Origin: SAR92 clade bacterium H231
Lineage (GTDB): Bacteria > Pseudomonadota > Gammaproteobacteria > Pseudomonadales > Porticoccaceae
Direction of reading: 5' to 3'
Length of the DNA stretch: 64,000 bases
NCBI GenBank assembly: GCA_025153775.1
Contig: JAOALC010000003.1
Coordinates: 186,001 to 250,000 of the forward strand
Numbering within the stretch: position 1 is the first letter of the stretch; the number at the start of each line of letters is the position of its first letter. Shown here in pieces: positions 6,499 to 14,964 of this stretch. Under the pieces are notes generated by a model. It did not search any database and was not told the DNA's origin. It worked only from the letters and a program-made list of their open reading frames with translations. A program made the translations under genes and the position numbers.

Positions 6499-8223
6499 AT
6501 GAGTATTTATCTCAAGCATTTTGGCCTGGTTCGAGAACCTTTCTCGATTGTGCCCGATCCTGGCTTTCTCTACCCCAGTAATCACCACCGCCAGGCCGTT
6601 GCCCATCTAAAGTATGGCCTGGATAGGGAAGGTGGTTTTATTCTGCTGACGGGAGAAGTGGGCACAGGCAAAACCACATTGACCCGCACCATGCTCAAAC
6701 GCCTGCCAGCCCATGTGCGGGTGGCCTATGTTCTCAATAGTAAGCTTGAAGTCAGTGACGCACTGGCAAGTATCTGTACTGAGCTATCTATAGAGTTGCC
6801 TGGCAACAGTAGCCTGTCATTTACAAAACTCTGCACCGACGCGCTCAACCAGGATTTACTCCAGGCCCATGCCCAGGGCAAGAAAACATTGATTGTAATT
6901 GAAGAGGCGCAAAACCTTACCTCCGAGGTTTTGGAGACACTGCGGTTGTTGAGTAATCTGGAGACCCATACCCATAAGCTGCTGCATATTTTACTGGTGG
7001 GGCAGCCGGAGTTGCTGGAAATATTGGCCCAGAAAGAGTTGCGTCAGCTTAATCAGCGGGTGGTCTCTAGATTTCATTTATTGCCCTTGGACAAAGATGA
7101 CCTGGCCAACTATGTCAATCATCGCCTGCACCGTGCCGGTGCAAAACAACCGATCTTCGACAGTGCCTGTATGTCGATGCTTTACAGACTAACCAAAGGA
7201 GTACCCAGATTAATTAATCTGGTCTGCCAACATTCTCTGCTGGCCGCCTATTCCACCGAAGCCAGAATCATCACCCCAAAATTGATTAAACAGGCTTCCG
7301 TAGAAATACTTGGCGAACAAAAGTCATCCCAGCCTCTGGTAAAGTACTGGCCCCATGGGCTGGCAGCTGCACTGCTTGCAATAGTCGTCTGGCTTATCGC
7401 CGCCGGATCTGGGATCGAGAATCAAGAGCCCTCAGCTTATCAAGAGCCCTCAGCGGAAAAAGAGCCCTCAGCTAATAAAGAGCCCTCAGCGGGTAAGGAG
7501 CCCTCAGCTTATCAAGAGCCCTCAGCGGAAAAAGAGCCCTCAGCTAATAAAGAGCCCTCAGCTTATCAAGAGCCCTCAGCGGATAAAGAGCCAATATCAC
7601 TACCCACCGCACCAGTTCCAACAGCCCAAACCCCAAACCTAAACCCATTTGCCGAATTACTGGGTCTCTGGTCAGTGACGGGCACAGAGGTCTACTCCCA
7701 GGAAGACTTTATTGCGCTGGCCGAATTTCAGGGTCTGCAATCCCATCAAATCTCTGACGCCGAGGTGATTGATCTAGAGATAATTAATCGTCCCGGTATT
7801 GTGCGACTGCAGACCCAAGCCGGCTATCTAAAGAGCTACCTGCTAACTCAGATCGACTCCTCAGGATTTACGGTTACCAGCGGCTCCGACAGCCAACTAT
7901 TGGATGCCCAGGCATTTCGCGATATCTGGTCGCGCAGTTTTATCTATCTCTGGCGACCCCCTATCGAGGTTGAGCGCCTAGCGCTGGGGGACACAGATGC
8001 GCAGGCTGTAAGCTGGCTGCAATCCCAGCTGCAGCAGGTAGATCAAAGCGCAGAAGCAATTATTAGCGGCGGCCGCTACACCCAGGCTATTGCCAACCAG
8101 GTACTGAAATTTCAGCGCGAACAGAATATTACCGCTGACGGAGTGGTTGGAAGGGAGACCCTGCTGCGACTCAATCAATTAACCAGAGCCGATATTCCGC
8201 TGCTGACCGAGGGTAGCAACTGA
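6499..8223 (+). CDS. gspA: GspA/ExeA-type AAA ATPase with peptidoglycan-binding domain
   Basis: This 574-residue membrane protein has a cytoplasmic AAA ATPase domain (Walker A at residues 52-60, Gly-Glu-Val-Gly-Thr-Gly-Lys-Thr-Thr; Walker B region 131-140 with a Glu-Glu pair). A transmembrane helix lies at about 287-304, followed by a periplasmic hexapeptide-repeat linker (310-369) and a C-terminal peptidoglycan-binding domain (about 499-562). In Aeromonas, ExeA with ExeB binds peptidoglycan and helps the secretin insert and multimerise. It sits 9 nt after gspD and overlaps gspB by 1 nt. The Glu-Pro-Ser-Ala repeat linker is an unusual local expansion. Confidence 0.9.
   Translation: MSIYLKHFGLVREPFSIVPDPGFLYPSNHHRQAVAHLKYGLDREGGFILLTGEVGTGKTTLTRTMLKRLPAHVRVAYVLNSKLEVSDALASICTELSIELPGNSSLSFTKLCTDALNQDLLQAHAQGKKTLIVIEEAQNLTSEVLETLRLLSNLETHTHKLLHILLVGQPELLEILAQKELRQLNQRVVSRFHLLPLDKDDLANYVNHRLHRAGAKQPIFDSACMSMLYRLTKGVPRLINLVCQHSLLAAYSTEARIITPKLIKQASVEILGEQKSSQPLVKYWPHGLAAALLAIVVWLIAAGSGIENQEPSAYQEPSAEKEPSANKEPSAGKEPSAYQEPSAEKEPSANKEPSAYQEPSADKEPISLPTAPVPTAQTPNLNPFAELLGLWSVTGTEVYSQEDFIALAEFQGLQSHQISDAEVIDLEIINRPGIVRLQTQAGYLKSYLLTQIDSSGFTVTSGSDSQLLDAQAFRDIWSRSFIYLWRPPIEVERLALGDTDAQAVSWLQSQLQQVDQSAEAIISGGRYTQAIANQVLKFQREQNITADGVVGRETLLRLNQLTRADIPLLTEGSN
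7426..7599 (+). repeat. 18-bp in-frame tandem repeat encoding an Glu-Pro-Ser-Ala-x-x linker
   Basis: Nine near-identical 18-bp units (gagccctcagc plus seven variable bases) and a degenerate tenth unit lie head to tail in the gspA linker. The two variable residues run YQ, EK, NK, GK, YQ, EK, NK, YQ, DK. A YQ-EK-NK trio therefore repeats, which implies duplication of a three- or four-unit block. Units keep the reading frame, so copy-number change would alter only linker length. Confidence 0.95.
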
Positions 8224-8741
8224 TGTCCTATATTCTCGATGCTCTAAAAAAAGCCGAGCGAGATCGCTTGCGCGAAGACCCTAAAGAGCTGGATGATTTT
8301 GCTAGCTCTAACTGGGATCCCTATCAGCAAGAACCTAAATCTGATGTACTGAAATATATAATTCTGCTGCTCTGTATTATTGTTGCGGTGATTGGCCTAG
8401 TGATTTATTCCGAGTTATTAACCAGGCCTCAGATACAGCCGCAACCGCCAGCCGCAGAGATCACCAAGCAGGCCCCTGCGCCCCAACCTATTAGGCAGTC
8501 TCTAGCACCAGCACCTGTTAATGTAAGTCAGCCGGAGCCAAAATCTCTGGCACTGCCAGAGCTGCAAATTTCGGGGCATATGTATATGGCAGAGGGCTCG
8601 GCTTCCAATCGGCTGTTTGCCAACGGTGGAAGTTTTCGCCAGGGTGATAAGCTGGATAATCATTGGACTCTGATTGCCGTGGGTATCGACGGTATTGAAA
8701 TCAGTGCCGGTCAGCGCAGAGAGTTTGTGCCCTATAGGTAA
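8223..8741 (+). CDS. gspB: Type II secretion assembly protein GspB
   Basis: This 172-residue protein begins with the hallmark Met-Ser-Tyr-Ile-Leu-Asp-Ala-Leu-Lys-Lys-Ala-Glu. A transmembrane helix follows (about residues 45-62), then a Pro/Gln-rich periplasmic linker and a C-terminal GspB domain (about 110-172). GspB partners with GspA for secretin assembly at the cell wall. It overlaps gspA by 1 nt and ends 3 nt from the end of the convergent aceK, so no terminator fits between the two operons. Confidence 0.93.
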   Translation: MSYILDALKKAERDRLREDPKELDDFASSNWDPYQQEPKSDVLKYIILLLCIIVAVIGLVIYSELLTRPQIQPQPPAAEITKQAPAPQPIRQSLAPAPVNVSQPEPKSLALPELQISGHMYMAEGSASNRLFANGGSFRQGDKLDNHWTLIAVGIDGIEISAGQRREFVPYR

Positions 8742-8744
8742 GGG

Positions 8745-10514
8745 CTAGTCGGAAAACACTTCCAGTATAGAGTCTTTGCCGCGATCAAAGCGCTTGGCGC
8801 GACGGTAGGGAAAGACATCGACCACATAGCCATTGCGAATCTGCTCTTGCAGCCCGGTCCAAAAACTAACCTGATAAAGTTCGCCGTGAATTTCTTCAAA
8901 CATTTTTCTCGCTTTAATATTGCCCGAGAAAAATAAACGAAACTCCTCGGGAAAAATATCATCCGGCCCCACTGTATACCAGGTGCCAGATTGCATCTCT
9001 TCCTGTTCAGTGCGGGGCTGCGGAATCTCGCGGAAATTACAGTCAGTCAATGTAGCAATCTCATCGTAATCATAGAAAACCACACGGCCATGGCGGGTGA
9101 CACCGAAATTCTTTAATGGCATATCACCGGGGAAGATATTAGCTGCCGCCAGCTGCTTGATGCAGTTGCCGTATTCCTCCATGGCGTTGCGAATCTGATC
9201 ATCGTCGGCTGTCTCCAGATAGATATTGAGCGGGGTCATGTAACGCTCGGTATAGAGGTGCTTGATAACCAGTTTATCGCCGCGTATTTCGATTGAGGAG
9301 CTGGCCACTTTATGCAGTTCTTCGATCAGCTCGTCAGAGAAGCGATCCAGAGGAAAAACCAGGTTGTCAAATTCCTGGGTATCAGCCATGCGGCCAATGC
9401 GGTCGTGGCGAGATACCAGGCGGTATTTTTCCCGCACCGTTTGATGAGTGACTTCCTTGGGGGGTGCGAACCTGTCTTTAATAATCTTAAATACAATATT
9501 GTAGGAGGGCAGGGTAAACACAGTCATCACCATGCCTTTGATACCTGGCGCCACAATAAACTTGTCGCTAGAGTTTTCCAGATGACCTACCAGCTGTCGG
9601 TAGAATTCAGTTTTTGCATGCTTGGGAAAACCCAGGCTGTTATAGACCTCATAGTCCAGCTTGCGGGGCATTAATGTTTTTAGAAAGTGCGCATACTGGT
9701 AGGGCAGAGGCGCATCCACCATAAAGTGGTTGCGGGTAAAACTGAATACAACACTGAGATCATCGTCATTAAACAGCGCTGTATCCACATAGAGCTGTCC
9801 TTTCTCGGTGTTGAGAAAAACCAGTGCCATGGGAAAAGTCTGATCGCCATCGACCACCCGACCCACCATATAGGCTGCCTTGCTGCGGTAAAAGGTAGAT
9901 TCCAAAATATCAAACTTTAGCTGCTCTGGCGTACCCAGAAGTTGTGGTGCTACTTCCTGATTAAAGACCTCGGTAATACAGTCAAGATCCAGCTCTATAT
10001 CTTCGCCCGGCAGGCTAAACTCAGATTCTTTAAGGATACGTCTAAAGGTATCTCGAAGACCCTCGCCCTCATAGCGCACAAAGATACTGTACTCGGCTTC
10101 TGGCGCCTCAATCAGTTGTGATGAGAGTACATAGATAATATCGTCGCTAATCTTGTCATGATCATGGATATCACTAAATACCGAGTTAAAGAAAGTCTCG
10201 GCAATTTCAAAGTTGGGGAAATTAAATACTAGCTGAGTGTAGGCCAGTTTGGCTTCGCTCCACAGATGAAGATTGGCAATATCTTTGTTGGTCACCATTT
10301 CCAGATACTGAACAGTCTGAGCTACTTTGGTTTTGTAGAGCTCCAGGCGATCCACATTGGCCTGCTGCACCCCATGCCAGTCTGCTTTTTCAAATCGAGC
10401 CTTGGCACTGAGGGTAGAGTTTAGATAGTCGGCAAAATAGCTGCGAAAACCATTGAGAATGGTTTTGGCCATACGCCGCGCGGTGGAGTTGTGAGTAAGT
10501 AGCTGTCCTGCCAT
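8745..10514 (-). CDS. aceK: Isocitrate dehydrogenase kinase/phosphatase AceK
   Basis: This 589-residue bifunctional enzyme phosphorylates and dephosphorylates isocitrate dehydrogenase. It thereby sets the split of isocitrate between the TCA cycle and the glyoxylate shunt. The ATP-binding stretch Ala-Pro-Gly-Ile-Lys-Gly-Met-Val-Met (about residues 322-330) and the kinase catalytic core with Asp-Met-Pro-Leu-Lys-Asn-Phe-Gly plus Tyr-Asp-Tyr-Asp-Glu (about 465-488) are intact. Length is normal. aceA and aceB are not next to it, unlike in the enterobacterial aceBAK operon. It lies 9 nt downstream of a replication-type gene on the same strand. Confidence 0.97.
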   Translation of the reverse strand: MAGQLLTHNSTARRMAKTILNGFRSYFADYLNSTLSAKARFEKADWHGVQQANVDRLELYKTKVAQTVQYLEMVTNKDIANLHLWSEAKLAYTQLVFNFPNFEIAETFFNSVFSDIHDHDKISDDIIYVLSSQLIEAPEAEYSIFVRYEGEGLRDTFRRILKESEFSLPGEDIELDLDCITEVFNQEVAPQLLGTPEQLKFDILESTFYRSKAAYMVGRVVDGDQTFPMALVFLNTEKGQLYVDTALFNDDDLSVVFSFTRNHFMVDAPLPYQYAHFLKTLMPRKLDYEVYNSLGFPKHAKTEFYRQLVGHLENSSDKFIVAPGIKGMVMTVFTLPSYNIVFKIIKDRFAPPKEVTHQTVREKYRLVSRHDRIGRMADTQEFDNLVFPLDRFSDELIEELHKVASSSIEIRGDKLVIKHLYTERYMTPLNIYLETADDDQIRNAMEEYGNCIKQLAAANIFPGDMPLKNFGVTRHGRVVFYDYDEIATLTDCNFREIPQPRTEQEEMQSGTWYTVGPDDIFPEEFRLFFSGNIKARKMFEEIHGELYQVSFWTGLQEQIRNGYVVDVFPYRRAKRFDRGKDSILEVFSD

Positions 10515-10523
10515 AGGCTGGGC

Positions 10524-11186
10524 CTAGTTTAATAACCGCTTAAGTTGATCAAGCTGTTGGCGATTGTGTTTTTTACTGGCCATTACCTGAGATGTTTCCG
10601 GCAGAGCCTGGGGAGGCTCGATAATAAATTCTTCACCAGCCACAACCAGATCACAGTACTGGTTGTAGACCTGAGTAAAAGCGGGCAGAGCTTTGGACTC
10701 CACTTCATTGGCCAGCAAATGCCAGCCACAGTCTCTGGCCGCCAGATAGACCGCTGGGTGAGACCATTTCTGTTCAGCTTTTGGGCTGGGCTTATTGCAG
10801 GCTTCTTCATAGGCTCTGCGGACACTGGGCAGATTTGAGGGCATGCCGGCAGAGCGACAGGCATTGAGCATTTTATGCAATGTAGGCAGGTACTCGCTGT
10901 CGGCAATAATTCTCTCTGCCGCGGCAAGAATCACCTCTGGGCCAAAGTCGCTGAGTTTGGACAGCCAGAGTTTTTTGGCCAGGTTTTCTGACTTGGTATT
11001 GTCGCCAAAGGCTGCATAGTACTGATTGTGATAATTAACCTGAAACAGGGCAAAAATCTGATTGATAGCATCAATCAGTTCAGGGCTAGCTGGTGGGGCT
11101 TTAGCTTGCCCAGCTGCGGTCTGAGAGCGCGTCGATGATGCTGCGATCCCGGATGCGACCTTCTGAATTAGATCCTTGGTTGCCAT
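10524..11186 (-). CDS. Lambda P-like replicative helicase loader (DopE-like)
   Basis: This protein of about 220 residues resembles phage replication protein P. It has a poorly conserved N terminus, then a helical domain with Leu-Trp-Leu-Ser-Lys-Leu (about 70-75), a Leu-Pro-Thr-Leu-His-Lys-Met-Leu stretch and a Tyr-Glu-Glu-Ala-Cys segment. Lambda P loads the DnaB helicase. Domesticated lambda O/P pairs, named dopC/dopE, have been proposed as chromosomal helicase loaders in bacteria lacking DnaC and DciA. This gene follows a DnaT-domain gene and overlaps its 3' end by 86 nt. The ATG at 11186 is chosen. A GTG at 11195 adds three residues. Family assignment is from pattern recognition only. Confidence 0.7.
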   Translation of the reverse strand: MATKDLIQKVASGIAASSTRSQTAAGQAKAPPASPELIDAINQIFALFQVNYHNQYYAAFGDNTKSENLAKKLWLSKLSDFGPEVILAAAERIIADSEYLPTLHKMLNACRSAGMPSNLPSVRRAYEEACNKPSPKAEQKWSHPAVYLAARDCGWHLLANEVESKALPAFTQVYNQYCDLVVAGEEFIIEPPQALPETSQVMASKKHNRQQLDQLKRLLN

Positions 11187-12237
11187 GACTAACACTCGCT
11201 GACTGAGATTGGTTGTGTCGCGCCCACTGACGCTTTACATATTGCAAAAATTTGGTACTCCAGGAACCATGTGGCGTGCCATTTTCCTGCCAGTAGAGAA
11301 CAAACTCGGGAATAATCTGCTGCGCAAATTGACGATCAATATTGGCCATCTGCAGAACATCATAAACGGTTTCTTTCGGCTGCCACTGATCGGGAATAGC
11401 TCTGGGCATGCTGTCCTGATCCATCATACCAGTGTAAAACTGCCATTGACGGCGCACATGATGAATAAATTTTGAATCCCAGGTGCTGGAGACATCGCCA
11501 CGATCGCGCCAGTAGAGAATAAACTCCGGCACCGCATCCTCAATAAAGTTGGGATTGATGCCACCCTGTTTAATCAGAATATCCAGGGCATCTGCCGAGG
11601 GTCGCCATTCACTGGTGACAGAGATTTCACGGCTGCGCTGGTGATGTTTGCTTGCCGCCTGCTGCCACTGACGCCATACCTCTTTGATATATTTTGACTC
11701 CCAACTATGACGAGGCACGTTGCGCTCTCGCCAGTAAGCCACAAACTGGGGAATCTGTTGTTGGGCAAACTCGCGGGTTACACCCAGCTGAGCCAGCTGT
11801 CTGAGAGCATCATCGCTCGGCTGCCAGCTACCGCCAATGGTTTGCGCTCCGTGGGGGATATTGCTGGCTGGGTTGGGTTGGGCTCTGGGGCCCCCTGTCT
11901 GTCGCGGGCTAGTCTGTTGGGTTGAGGCCTGAGTTGCTGATACTTCATTAAAAGCAAAACGAAAGTCCTGGTGCGCAGAAAAAGCGCCGCCTATCAGTAA
12001 CAAGCCTTTCTCATGGAGGCTCGCCGACAGGCGCCGAATATCTTCTTCACGCCAAAATGGTGTCAGACTCAGCAGCTTTTGCCCTGAGATAGTGACCCAG
12101 TTAAACCCGCTGCTGCTCAGTGTATCGCCATGGGCAATACATTCCTGCAGCAGCTGCAATAGCACCGCTTCCTCAAGACCCAGCGTGGCCGCCAGACTGG
12201 GTGAGATTACAATAGGTTTTTCGGGAATTAGCGACAT
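11101..12237 (-). CDS. DnaT-domain replication protein with three tandem DnaT repeats (DopC-like)
   Basis: This 378-residue protein has an N-terminal winged-helix-like domain (about 10-97, with Leu-Gly-Leu-Glu-Glu-Ala-Val-Leu-Leu-Gln) as in phage replication initiators. Three copies of a roughly 54-residue DnaT-type ssDNA-binding domain follow at 138-191, 211-265 and 285-339. Each runs Trp-x-Pro ... Pro-Glu/Gln-Phe-x-x-Tyr-Trp ... Trp-x-Ser-Lys-Phe/Tyr ... Arg-Gln-Trp. DnaT domains act in primosome assembly. Next to a lambda P-like gene, it probably helps DnaB loading at the origin or at restarting forks. The last 86 nt are shared with the downstream gene in another frame. Confidence 0.75.
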   Translation of the reverse strand: MSLIPEKPIVISPSLAATLGLEEAVLLQLLQECIAHGDTLSSSGFNWVTISGQKLLSLTPFWREEDIRRLSASLHEKGLLLIGGAFSAHQDFRFAFNEVSATQASTQQTSPRQTGGPRAQPNPASNIPHGAQTIGGSWQPSDDALRQLAQLGVTREFAQQQIPQFVAYWRERNVPRHSWESKYIKEVWRQWQQAASKHHQRSREISVTSEWRPSADALDILIKQGGINPNFIEDAVPEFILYWRDRGDVSSTWDSKFIHHVRRQWQFYTGMMDQDSMPRAIPDQWQPKETVYDVLQMANIDRQFAQQIIPEFVLYWQENGTPHGSWSTKFLQYVKRQWARHNQSQSASVSHGNQGSNSEGRIRDRSIIDALSDRSWAS

Positions 12238-12298: not shown

Positions 12299-12979
12299 TT
12301 AGCTGGCCCAGCCGCCGCTTACCGGAAACACCTGACCCACAAAGCAGTCGGCGGCATCGGAACAGAGATAAGCGGCAAACTGGGCATCTTCGTCCATGGA
12401 CACCAGTCGCCCCAGTGGGACTTCTCTCGCCAGCCGTTCCTGAAAAGCCGGGTTGGCCTTGGTCTCAGCGGAGAAGTAAGTGGGGTTGTCGACAAAGTTT
12501 TGAGCAATGGCATTGATCTGAATGCCCTGAGGGGCCATCTCAACTCCCGCGGCCTGCACATAAGCTAGCTGTGCGCCGCGGGCAGCACTGTAGGTGGAGG
12601 CGCGCTTCATACCGCGCAGGGCCGAGGCGCTGCCCATCAGCAAAATCTTGCCAGACTGACGTGCCATCATCTGGGGCAGCACTGCGGTGACCAGTCGTGG
12701 CAAGGGGTCAACCAGAGCAGCAAAAACTGATTGCCACTCCTGTGACTCAACCCTGTCCAGCTTGGTGAAGGGGGCGGGCACCGCCAAATTAATTACCAGC
12801 ACATCTATGGTGCCGGCGGCTGCAATAATCTCGCCGGGCAGTGCAGGATCGGTCAGAAGCTGATTGTCGGTGATTACCTCGGCGCCCATCTCGGCAAAAA
12901 CTTCGCAGAGCTTTGGGCCCATAAAGGTATCGGCCTGAGTGACTAAAATTCGTTTACCCTTTAGATCATTGGTAATCAT
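12299..12979 (-). CDS. Halohydrin dehalogenase-like SDR-fold enzyme
   Basis: This 226-residue Rossmann-fold protein lacks the SDR cofactor glycine motif and the catalytic Lys. It carries both signatures that define halohydrin dehalogenases. The first is Thr14-x4-Phe19-x-Gly21 in place of the NAD(P) loop, which forms the halide/nucleophile pocket. The second is the triad Ser117-x12-Tyr130-x3-Arg134. These enzymes reversibly convert vicinal haloalcohols into epoxides and open epoxides with nucleophiles, without cofactor. Length (about 225-255 in the family) fits. The C-terminal Trp near residue 224 is also typical. It overlaps the upstream GNAT gene by 4 nt, so the two are likely co-transcribed. 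An inactive or divergent SDR is the alternative. Confidence 0.8.
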   Translation of the reverse strand: MITNDLKGKRILVTQADTFMGPKLCEVFAEMGAEVITDNQLLTDPALPGEIIAAAGTIDVLVINLAVPAPFTKLDRVESQEWQSVFAALVDPLPRLVTAVLPQMMARQSGKILLMGSASALRGMKRASTYSAARGAQLAYVQAAGVEMAPQGIQINAIAQNFVDNPTYFSAETKANPAFQERLAREVPLGRLVSMDEDAQFAAYLCSDAADCFVGQVFPVSGGWAS

Positions 12980-13476
12980 AATTGGTCTTCCGCTGAAAAG
13001 TGGCTGGCAAGTGTGTTTAGGGCATCGCCGGTTACACGATTGACGGTCCAGTCATCCATTGGCTCGGCGCCCAGAGACCGGTAGAAATCTATAGCTGGCT
13101 GATTCCAGTCTAGCACCCACCACTCCAGCCTGCCGCAGTTGCGCTCCAGTGCCAGATTAGCCAGATAGGCCAGCAATGTTTTGCCAAAGCCTCTGCCGCG
13201 CATCTCTGGCTGAATATAGAGATCTTCCAGATACAGGCCAGGCCGACCCAGAAAAGTGGAATAGTTGTGAAAGAATAGTGCAAAGCCCAGGGGTTGCCCC
13301 TGATGCTCGGCAATCACCACCTCGGCATGAGGTTTGTCGCCAAATAGAGACGACTCCAGTGCAGCCACATCGGCCACCACTTCATGAAGCAGTTTTTCAT
13401 AGTCGGCCAGCTCCCTAATAAATTTAAGAATTAATGGGCAGTCTTGGATATTGGCCTGACGTATAGATAATGACAT
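12976..13476 (-). CDS. GNAT family N-acetyltransferase (diamine/thialysine acetyltransferase-like)
   Basis: This 166-residue single-domain GNAT protein has the acetyl-CoA pyrophosphate-binding loop Gln-x-x-x-Arg-Gly-x-Gly-x-Gly/Lys at about 90-100 (Met-Arg-Gly-Arg-Gly-Phe-Gly-Lys). The preceding Leu-Glu-Asp-Leu-Tyr-Ile strand and the later Trp-Val-Leu-Asp-Trp-Asn-Gln-Pro-Ala-Ile-Asp-Phe-Tyr resemble spermidine/thialysine acetyltransferases. Substrate cannot be told from sequence. It is divergent from radA with a 120-nt gap that holds a LexA box, and it overlaps the halohydrin dehalogenase-like gene by 4 nt. Confidence 0.85.
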   Translation of the reverse strand: MSLSIRQANIQDCPLILKFIRELADYEKLLHEVVADVAALESSLFGDKPHAEVVIAEHQGQPLGFALFFHNYSTFLGRPGLYLEDLYIQPEMRGRGFGKTLLAYLANLALERNCGRLEWWVLDWNQPAIDFYRSLGAEPMDDWTVNRVTGDALNTLASHFSAEDQL

Positions 13477-13596: not shown

Positions 13597-14964
13597 TTGG
13601 CGACAAAATCCAAATCAGCCTATGTGTGTAATGACTGTGGCGCCGACTATCGCAAATGGCAGGGCCAGTGTGGTGAGTGTAGCGCCTGGAATACCCTGTC
13701 TGAAGTGCGTCTAGGGCCTGCGGCCCGCAGCGGCAAGATTTTGCGTCCGGGGTTCGCTGGCGCTGTAGATGGTGCGGTAAAAACCTTGGCGGAAATTGCG
13801 CTGGATGAAATTCCCCGCATCAGCACAGGCACCGGCGAGCTAGATCTGGTGCTGGGCGGAGGCCTGGTTCCAGGTTCGGCTATTTTGGTGGGCGGTGAGC
13901 CTGGCGCCGGCAAGAGTACATTGTTGCTGCAGACTCTATGCAAGCTGGCAGAAAATAATACCGCGCTCTATGTGACTGGTGAGGAATCTCCCCAGCAGGT
14001 GGCCATGCGTGCCCGGCGCCTAGATTTACCAGCGGACAAGCTGGAAATTATGGCCGAGACCTCGGTGGAAACTGTCTGTGCTATAGCTGAACAGAAGCGC
14101 CCCAAAATTCTGGTGGTGGACTCTATACAGGTGATGCATATAGAAGAGGTGTCCTCGGCCCCCGGCAGTGTGTCCCAGGTGCGCGAGAGCGCCTCTATGC
14201 TGGTGCGCTTTGCCAAGCAGACCGGAACTGTATTAATTCTAGTGGGCCATGTCACCAAAGACGGCTCTTTGGCTGGCCCTAAAGTATTAGAGCATATGAT
14301 TGACTGTTCGCTGATGCTGGAGGGTTCCAGCGACTCCCACTTTCGCACATTGCGCAGTAATAAAAACCGTTTTGGCGCGGTCAATGAACTGGGTGTTTTT
14401 GCCATGACCGACAAGGGTCTAAAAGAAGTGGCCAATCCCTCAGCGATATTCCTGCAGCGTGGAGAGGAGGTGTCCTCTGGCTCTGTGGTGATGGTGGTCT
14501 GGGAAGGCACCAGGCCCCTTTTAGTGGAACTGCAGGCGTTGGTAGACGATAGCCATCTGGGCAACCCGCGGCGAGTGACTGTGGGTCTGGACCACAATCG
14601 ACTGTCGATGTTGCTGGCGGTGTTACATCGTCACGGTGGTATATCTGTGGGCGATCAGGATGTCTTTGTCAATGTGGTGGGCGGGGTCAAGGTATTAGAG
14701 ACCAGCGCAGATCTAGCCTTGATCCTGTCAGTGATTTCCAGCTTCCGTGACAATTCACTGCCCCAGGACCTGGTGGTATTTGGCGAAGTGGGGTTGGCCG
14801 GTGAGATTCGCCCTGTGGCCAATGGTCAGGAGCGTTTGCGCGAGGCAGCCAAGCATGGCTTTACGCGCGCCATTGTGCCTGCAGGCAATGCTCCCAAGCA
14901 GCCTATTAAAGGTATGAAAGTTATTCCAGTGCGCCGTGTTACTGAGGCTCTGGAGGCTCTGTAA
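13597..14964 (+). CDS. radA: DNA repair protein RadA
   Basis: This 455-residue RecA-like branch-migration helicase acts in recombinational repair. The N-terminal zinc finger has Cys11, Cys14, Cys25 and Cys28. Walker A is at 99-108 (Gly-Gly-Glu-Pro-Gly-Ala-Gly-Lys-Ser-Thr), the RadA-specific Lys-Asn-Arg-Phe-Gly motif is at 256-260, and a Lon-protease-like domain fills the C terminus. The start is TTG, set by a GGGAG site 6 nt upstream and by the family N terminus. The LexA box just upstream suggests damage-inducible expression. Confidence 0.97.
   Translation: MATKSKSAYVCNDCGADYRKWQGQCGECSAWNTLSEVRLGPAARSGKILRPGFAGAVDGAVKTLAEIALDEIPRISTGTGELDLVLGGGLVPGSAILVGGEPGAGKSTLLLQTLCKLAENNTALYVTGEESPQQVAMRARRLDLPADKLEIMAETSVETVCAIAEQKRPKILVVDSIQVMHIEEVSSAPGSVSQVRESASMLVRFAKQTGTVLILVGHVTKDGSLAGPKVLEHMIDCSLMLEGSSDSHFRTLRSNKNRFGAVNELGVFAMTDKGLKEVANPSAIFLQRGEEVSSGSVVMVVWEGTRPLLVELQALVDDSHLGNPRRVTVGLDHNRLSMLLAVLHRHGGISVGDQDVFVNVVGGVKVLETSADLALILSVISSFRDNSLPQDLVVFGEVGLAGEIRPVANGQERLREAAKHGFTRAIVPAGNAPKQPIKGMKVIPVRRVTEALEAL

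Follow-up and report, generated by a model that had tools for sequence, protein, structure and literature searches.

A D-type halohydrin dehalogenase gene in the SAR92 genus of strain HTCC2207

Described halohydrin dehalogenases

In two papers, the classical NAD(P)-dependent SDRs are recognized by a T-G/A-x3-G/A-x-G cofactor motif and by S-x10-14-Y-x3-K (PMC11976700), and motif 1 of the halohydrin dehalogenases (HHDHs), T-x4-F/Y-x-G, is described as standing where SDRs have the Gly-rich loop and as lining an anion pocket at their NAD(P) site (PMC4989007, PMC11976700). The same papers assign a role to each catalytic residue of the HHDH family: the serine positions the hydroxyl, the tyrosine is the base and the arginine lowers the pKa of the tyrosine (PMC4989007, PMC11976700). 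HHDHs are homotetramers according to PMC4989007, where it is also reported that activity was confirmed for a selection of 19 enzymes picked by motif, that HheD through HheD6 were experimentally verified and that HheD19 to HheD38 share 57-95% identity with verified D enzymes.

The protein considered here is encoded in SAR92 clade bacterium H231, within a 64,000-nt stretch of DNA that was analysed as a whole (the window). Its closest PDB sequence is 7b73 (398 bits, E 7e-119), followed by 8xxb (299 bits) and HheB (181 bits), while the FabG reductases do not exceed 73 bits. By their titles, 7b73 is HheD2 and 8xxb is HheD8. HheD2 comes from HTCC2207, a marine gammaproteobacterium, and the printed 7b73 segment was found exactly within the translated gene of that strain. 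With it the window protein shares 182 of 222 aligned residues (82%); none of the 40 substitutions falls at a motif or catalytic position, where every residue is the same. HheD8 belongs to the same subtype and is 62% identical to the window protein in the structural match, the 8xxb chain being a triple mutant with three engineered changes named in its title. HheB (PDB 4zd6), which is of another subtype and of Corynebacterium origin (title of 5b12), shares the short architecture (227 amino acids) at about 45% identity, and its motifs are the same except for a Y in motif 1 where the window protein has F. HheC (PDB 1pwx) has the reaction class, the catalytic triad and the logic of the halide pocket in common with the family of the window protein, but it is distant in sequence (70.5 bits) and longer, with a C-terminal extension. 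The kind of enzyme is thus already known: the crystal structure of a sibling has been solved, and about four-fifths of the residues are identical in both proteins.

The hheD gene and assignment of its product

The gene, hheD, lies on the minus strand, where an ORF of 226 codons with its ATG at 12979 fills positions 12299-12979; in the same frame, the plus strand of this segment is interrupted by stops. The product, a D-type HHDH of 226 amino acids, carries motif 1 as T14-x4-F19-x-G21 and motif 2 as S117-x12-Y130-x3-R134, and these residues stand in the translated ORF exactly where the sequence-only reading, which had proposed a candidate HHDH, had put them. Q160 and D198, which we take to be residues important in HheD2, are present as well. 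That reading had regarded the two motifs as diagnostic of HHDHs. Their joint presence is no chance match: they occur together in one of the 58 window ORFs of at least 150 amino acids, namely hheD, and in none of 417 other called ORFs of at least 200 amino acids from the fetched homologue loci, among which 8 show motif 1 within the first 60 residues and 28 show motif 2. The motif and catalytic residues are invariant across 38 aligned sequences. Within the genus, motif 1 is present in 19 of the 20 copies, the match in the remaining genome (G005) starting only at residue 15.

An AlphaFold model of the monomer, built on 38 aligned sequences, has a mean pLDDT of 83.1 and a pTM of 0.83. It shows an SDR-like Rossmann fold and is matched best by the four chains of 7b73 (TM 0.89, rmsd 3.5-3.6), then by HheD8 and HheB, with FabG behind; its weak stretches lie around 121-130, which holds Tyr130, and at 161-170, 181-190 and 221-226.

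HHDHs and SDRs share this fold, and the general profile libraries name SDR families only. In Pfam the protein matches adh_short_C2 above the cut-off (104.7 bits), and all NCBIfam models listed (25 of 183), which are SDR families, fall under their cut-offs. Such results would suit an ordinary NAD(P)-dependent SDR in which the two motifs had matched by chance, an outcome that the sequence-only reading had itself named as fatal to its proposal. The identity to HheD2 in practice refutes this alternative; the Gly-rich cofactor motif and the S-x10-14-Y-x3-K pattern of the classical enzymes are absent from the window protein, which has Arg where Lys is expected; and both motifs are kept in all 81 homologues considered (the window protein and the best 80 of 317 relatives from a genome scan). 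The genome of the window also encodes SDRs of its own, found as 20 weaker matches. The seven of these that were examined are 24-30% identical to the window protein and all have Ser-Tyr-Lys, and five of them contain the searched Gly-rich pattern; of the other two, one is a fragment and one has a variant loop.

In a phylogenetic tree, 41 rows (40 D-type enzymes and HheB) were separated from the others with a support of 100/98, and 43 HHDH rows were separated from the seven own-genome SDRs with 99/93, on long branches. The window protein groups with HheD2 inside a supported SAR92 set, and HheB, with its long branch, falls within the D enzymes, which blurs the boundary between subtypes D and B in this tree. 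The tree was built without HheA and HheG, and HheC and 6a41 entered it as partial rows (printed alignment segments only); because many of the outer branches are long, only the near placement is to be trusted. The identity to HheD2 also lies within the 57-95% range of subtype D. By sequence and fold the window protein is an HHDH, and hheD is a new member of subtype D in the genus of HTCC2207 (SAR92/Porticoccaceae); the ordinary SDR is an extremely unlikely alternative. Taken together with the mechanism, role and genus history discussed below, a cofactor-free D-type HHDH is the best explanation and almost certainly the right one.

Proposed mechanism

The residues of the window protein are the same as those of a solved sibling at 82% identity, which makes its chemistry very likely: judging from HheD2 and the remaining family, it very probably interconverts haloalcohols and epoxides. 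By this analogy, Ser117 would hold the substrate hydroxyl, and Tyr130, its pKa lowered by Arg134, would serve as acid/base. The loop T14-F19-G21, standing in place of the Gly-rich NAD(P) loop, would form the halide or anion pocket. Vicinal haloalcohols would be converted to epoxides in a reversible reaction, and epoxides could in turn be opened with halide, azide, cyanide or nitrite as the nucleophile. The cellular task of the enzyme would most likely be to clear natural haloalcohols or to act on a related small epoxide/anion pair, any natural substrate named here being a guess.

Genomic neighbourhood and the GNAT gene

Directly upstream of hheD and on the same strand lies a GNAT acetyltransferase gene (12976..13476, minus, 166 amino acids), with which it overlaps by 4 nt (ATGA). 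The best solved relatives of the GNAT protein are 2fe7, a probable N-acetyltransferase, and 12jc, a thialysine acetyltransferase. The upstream flank is formed by the divergent radA (13597..14964, plus, 455 amino acids; named by sequence reading). On the other side, 61 nt past the stop of hheD, follows a dnaT-like gene (11101..12237, minus, 378 amino acids) with three matches to the DnaT DNA-binding domain; it is overlapped by a 223-aa ORF without a Pfam match (10524-11195, minus), and aceK comes next (8745-10514, minus). The order radA, GNAT, hheD, dnaT-like is the same at the HheD2 locus of HTCC2207, but there the two middle genes are separated by 21 nt, whereas they overlap in the window.

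Some features of the flanks were observed in passing. Among the 43 genus loci that were read, the dnaT-like gene, whose protein is chromosomal, was seen in 41 and the 223-aa ORF in 40. In a deep branch of small genomes, aceK is missing at its usual place (loci L202, L204, L205, L206 and L207, from genomes G044, G030, G031, G018 and G049, respectively); it was found there in the other loci reaching far enough, G040 excepted. Beyond aceK, the plus strand at 6499-8741 encodes an AAA ATPase with a peptidoglycan-binding domain and then a small protein with a T2SSB match below cut-off, which we take to resemble a GspA/GspB-type pair.

The sequence-only reading had offered the overlap with the GNAT gene as a lead to function. 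Whole-genome searches found GNAT in 25 of 50 genus genomes, including all 20 with hheD. At the level of loci, 42 were anchored at radA and one (G011, without a radA match) was read via GNAT; of these 43, 20 carry GNAT and hheD, five GNAT alone and 18 neither. Seven genomes were left out at this site, six with radA unmatched (G009, G010, G017, G035, G037, G045) and one as a fragment (G023), and neither gene was found in them by whole-genome searches. The junction between the two genes varies among the 20 loci: the 4-nt overlap occurs in seven, a further seven have the genes +21 nt apart, and the values -1, +2, +31 and +53 occur once each. The two remaining values, -49 for G005 and -681 for G032, are artefacts of the script or stem from fragmentary matches.

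The constant position of GNAT directly upstream of hheD in all 20 genomes, together with the 4-nt overlap in the window, could point to a two-gene functional unit, in which the acetyltransferase might, for example, acetylate an amine that arises from, or is damaged by, an epoxide or haloalcohol. Several observations speak against such a unit. GNAT occurs without hheD in five genomes at three separate positions of the tree, hheD persists in a genome (G022) whose GNAT match contains an internal stop, and the overlap is limited to seven of the 20 junctions. Moreover, all 16 loci from SAR92 in the genome scan carry GNAT, but no close GNAT was found near hheD in the fetched flanks, several of them short, of 64 loci outside SAR92, where the two weak matches were 29-31% identical (at best 31% over 84 amino acids). 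Adjacency by itself can account for the joint inheritance. A two-gene unit is therefore very unlikely, and the pairing is the synteny of one lineage and no general partnership; the overlap first noticed is real in the window, and as a lead to function it is weak.

Inheritance within the genus

The hheD gene is present in 20 of the 50 genus genomes. It is followed by the dnaT-like gene in 18 of these, the contig of G022 ending at that point and none being seen in G040. A tree built from the flanking proteins requires four changes for hheD and two for GNAT, of which supported branches force four and one, respectively; this species tree is unrooted, and three of its rows are less than half filled. 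Most simply, GNAT and hheD arrived once, jointly, between radA and the dnaT-like gene, and in this simplest history hheD was then lost alone about three times, namely in G011 (a genome that is 74% complete), in G024 and in G028/G047/G048. The gene may already have been present in an ancestor older than the genus. None was found in the other 13 genera sampled from the family, which gives one of 14 genera and 20 of 112 genomes.

The dN/dS ratio of hheD was about 0.02-0.10 in nine picked close pairs (Nei-Gojobori, some with dS above 1), a range that resembles that of the neighbouring genes. In the genus, hheD is inherited under purifying selection. Its inheritance in 20 species genomes, this selection and a history of one arrival with repeated loss together disfavour a recent enzyme for man-made chemicals.

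Distribution in other lineages

When 84,980 species genomes were scanned, 317 stretches were found to code for a relative (E <= 1e-3). The 80 best-scoring ones are 66-90% identical to the window protein; among these are SAR92, beta-proteobacteria, Competibacter, Thiothrix, Marinobacter and Desulfobacterota MAGs. The phylum was also sampled evenly, with seven candidates scored per genome; five of the 397 genomes had an HHDH, the window's own counted, and among plasmid records there was one match at E <= 1e-25, with 41% identity, from Novosphingobium resinovorum. The family had been called rare at the outset, which agrees with the phylum sample and sits less well with the 317 relatives. D-type hheD is patchy and its neighbourhoods change, and it looks to have spread by transfer between lineages.

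Hosts unexpected for an enzyme linked to haloalcohols or epoxides were also noted: the D-type homologues of L025, L051 and L085 lie on contigs titled as Desulfatitalea or Desulfobacterales MAGs, presumably sulfate reducers.

Among the 80 fetched loci, 13 neighbour clusters recur in at least three loci outside SAR92, with a maximum of five (the SDR/HHDH cluster excluded); some of them are Dechloromonas/Azonexus synteny and others mix distant hosts. Apart from synteny at the genus level and a loose group of alpha/beta hydrolases, no recurring neighbour family was found there. When 20 neighbours picked by eye were scanned with Pfam, three had no match, three were alpha/beta hydrolases and the others differed. 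Genes for alpha/beta hydrolases, a fold that includes the epoxide hydrolases, adjoin hheD in unrelated loci (L029:6679-7500, L045:3418-4185, L082:5000-5947). All NCBIfam models listed for them were under their cut-offs. The best PDB matches were an alpha/beta hydrolase fold protein for L082 and a probable hydrolase for L029, epoxide hydrolase and haloalkane dehalogenase entries ranking lower. That these hydrolases act as an epoxide sink in other lineages is a weak lead and not a pattern.

Natural role

Among the papers listed by searches of the open-licence literature on natural role or gene context, none dealt with HHDHs. Beside hheD in the window, where the neighbours are radA, GNAT, the dnaT-like gene and aceK, no gene of a haloalcohol or epoxide pathway is evident, and the genome has no match to the N-terminal domain of epoxide hydrolases (EHN, PF06441), the sole epoxide hydrolase family searched.

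The genome of the window contains five strong matches to Trp_halogenase (PF04820), all outside the window on contigs C2 and C4, as two close pairs and a single one. At least one protein of the flavin halogenase type was found in 38 of the 50 genus genomes, with no association with hheD: 14 of the 20 genomes with the gene have one, as do 24 of the 30 without.

A purely marine role in bromohydrin turnover fits poorly with the close homologues on contigs of sulfate-reducer MAGs. The physiological reaction might instead be the opening or formation of an epoxide with a non-halide anion (nitrite, cyanide or cyanate), dehalogenation being incidental. The family takes such nucleophiles in vitro, according to PMC4989007 and PMC11536340; the contigs that bear close homologues include some titled as bacteria from sludge, soil and groundwater and as sulfate reducer MAGs; and in L051 a formate/nitrite transporter gene stands directly upstream of the homologue. 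A single neighbour in one MAG makes no pattern, however, and outside SAR92 no other recurring neighbour family was found; we consider this reading unlikely.

The motif residues, the catalytic residues and many further positions are invariant from SAR92 to beta-proteobacteria and to the MAGs of sulfate reducers, despite the changing neighbourhood. We tentatively suggest, at somewhat less than even chances, that the enzymes of subtype D are long-standing residents that share a single natural substrate, and not recent ones for man-made chemicals. If this is true, a common and as yet unnamed small haloalcohol or epoxide would be made across many habitats. For the question of why bacteria retain D-type HHDHs, the hheD gene of the window offers a modest lead, and related species with and without it at one fixed site provide a natural comparison toward the native substrate.
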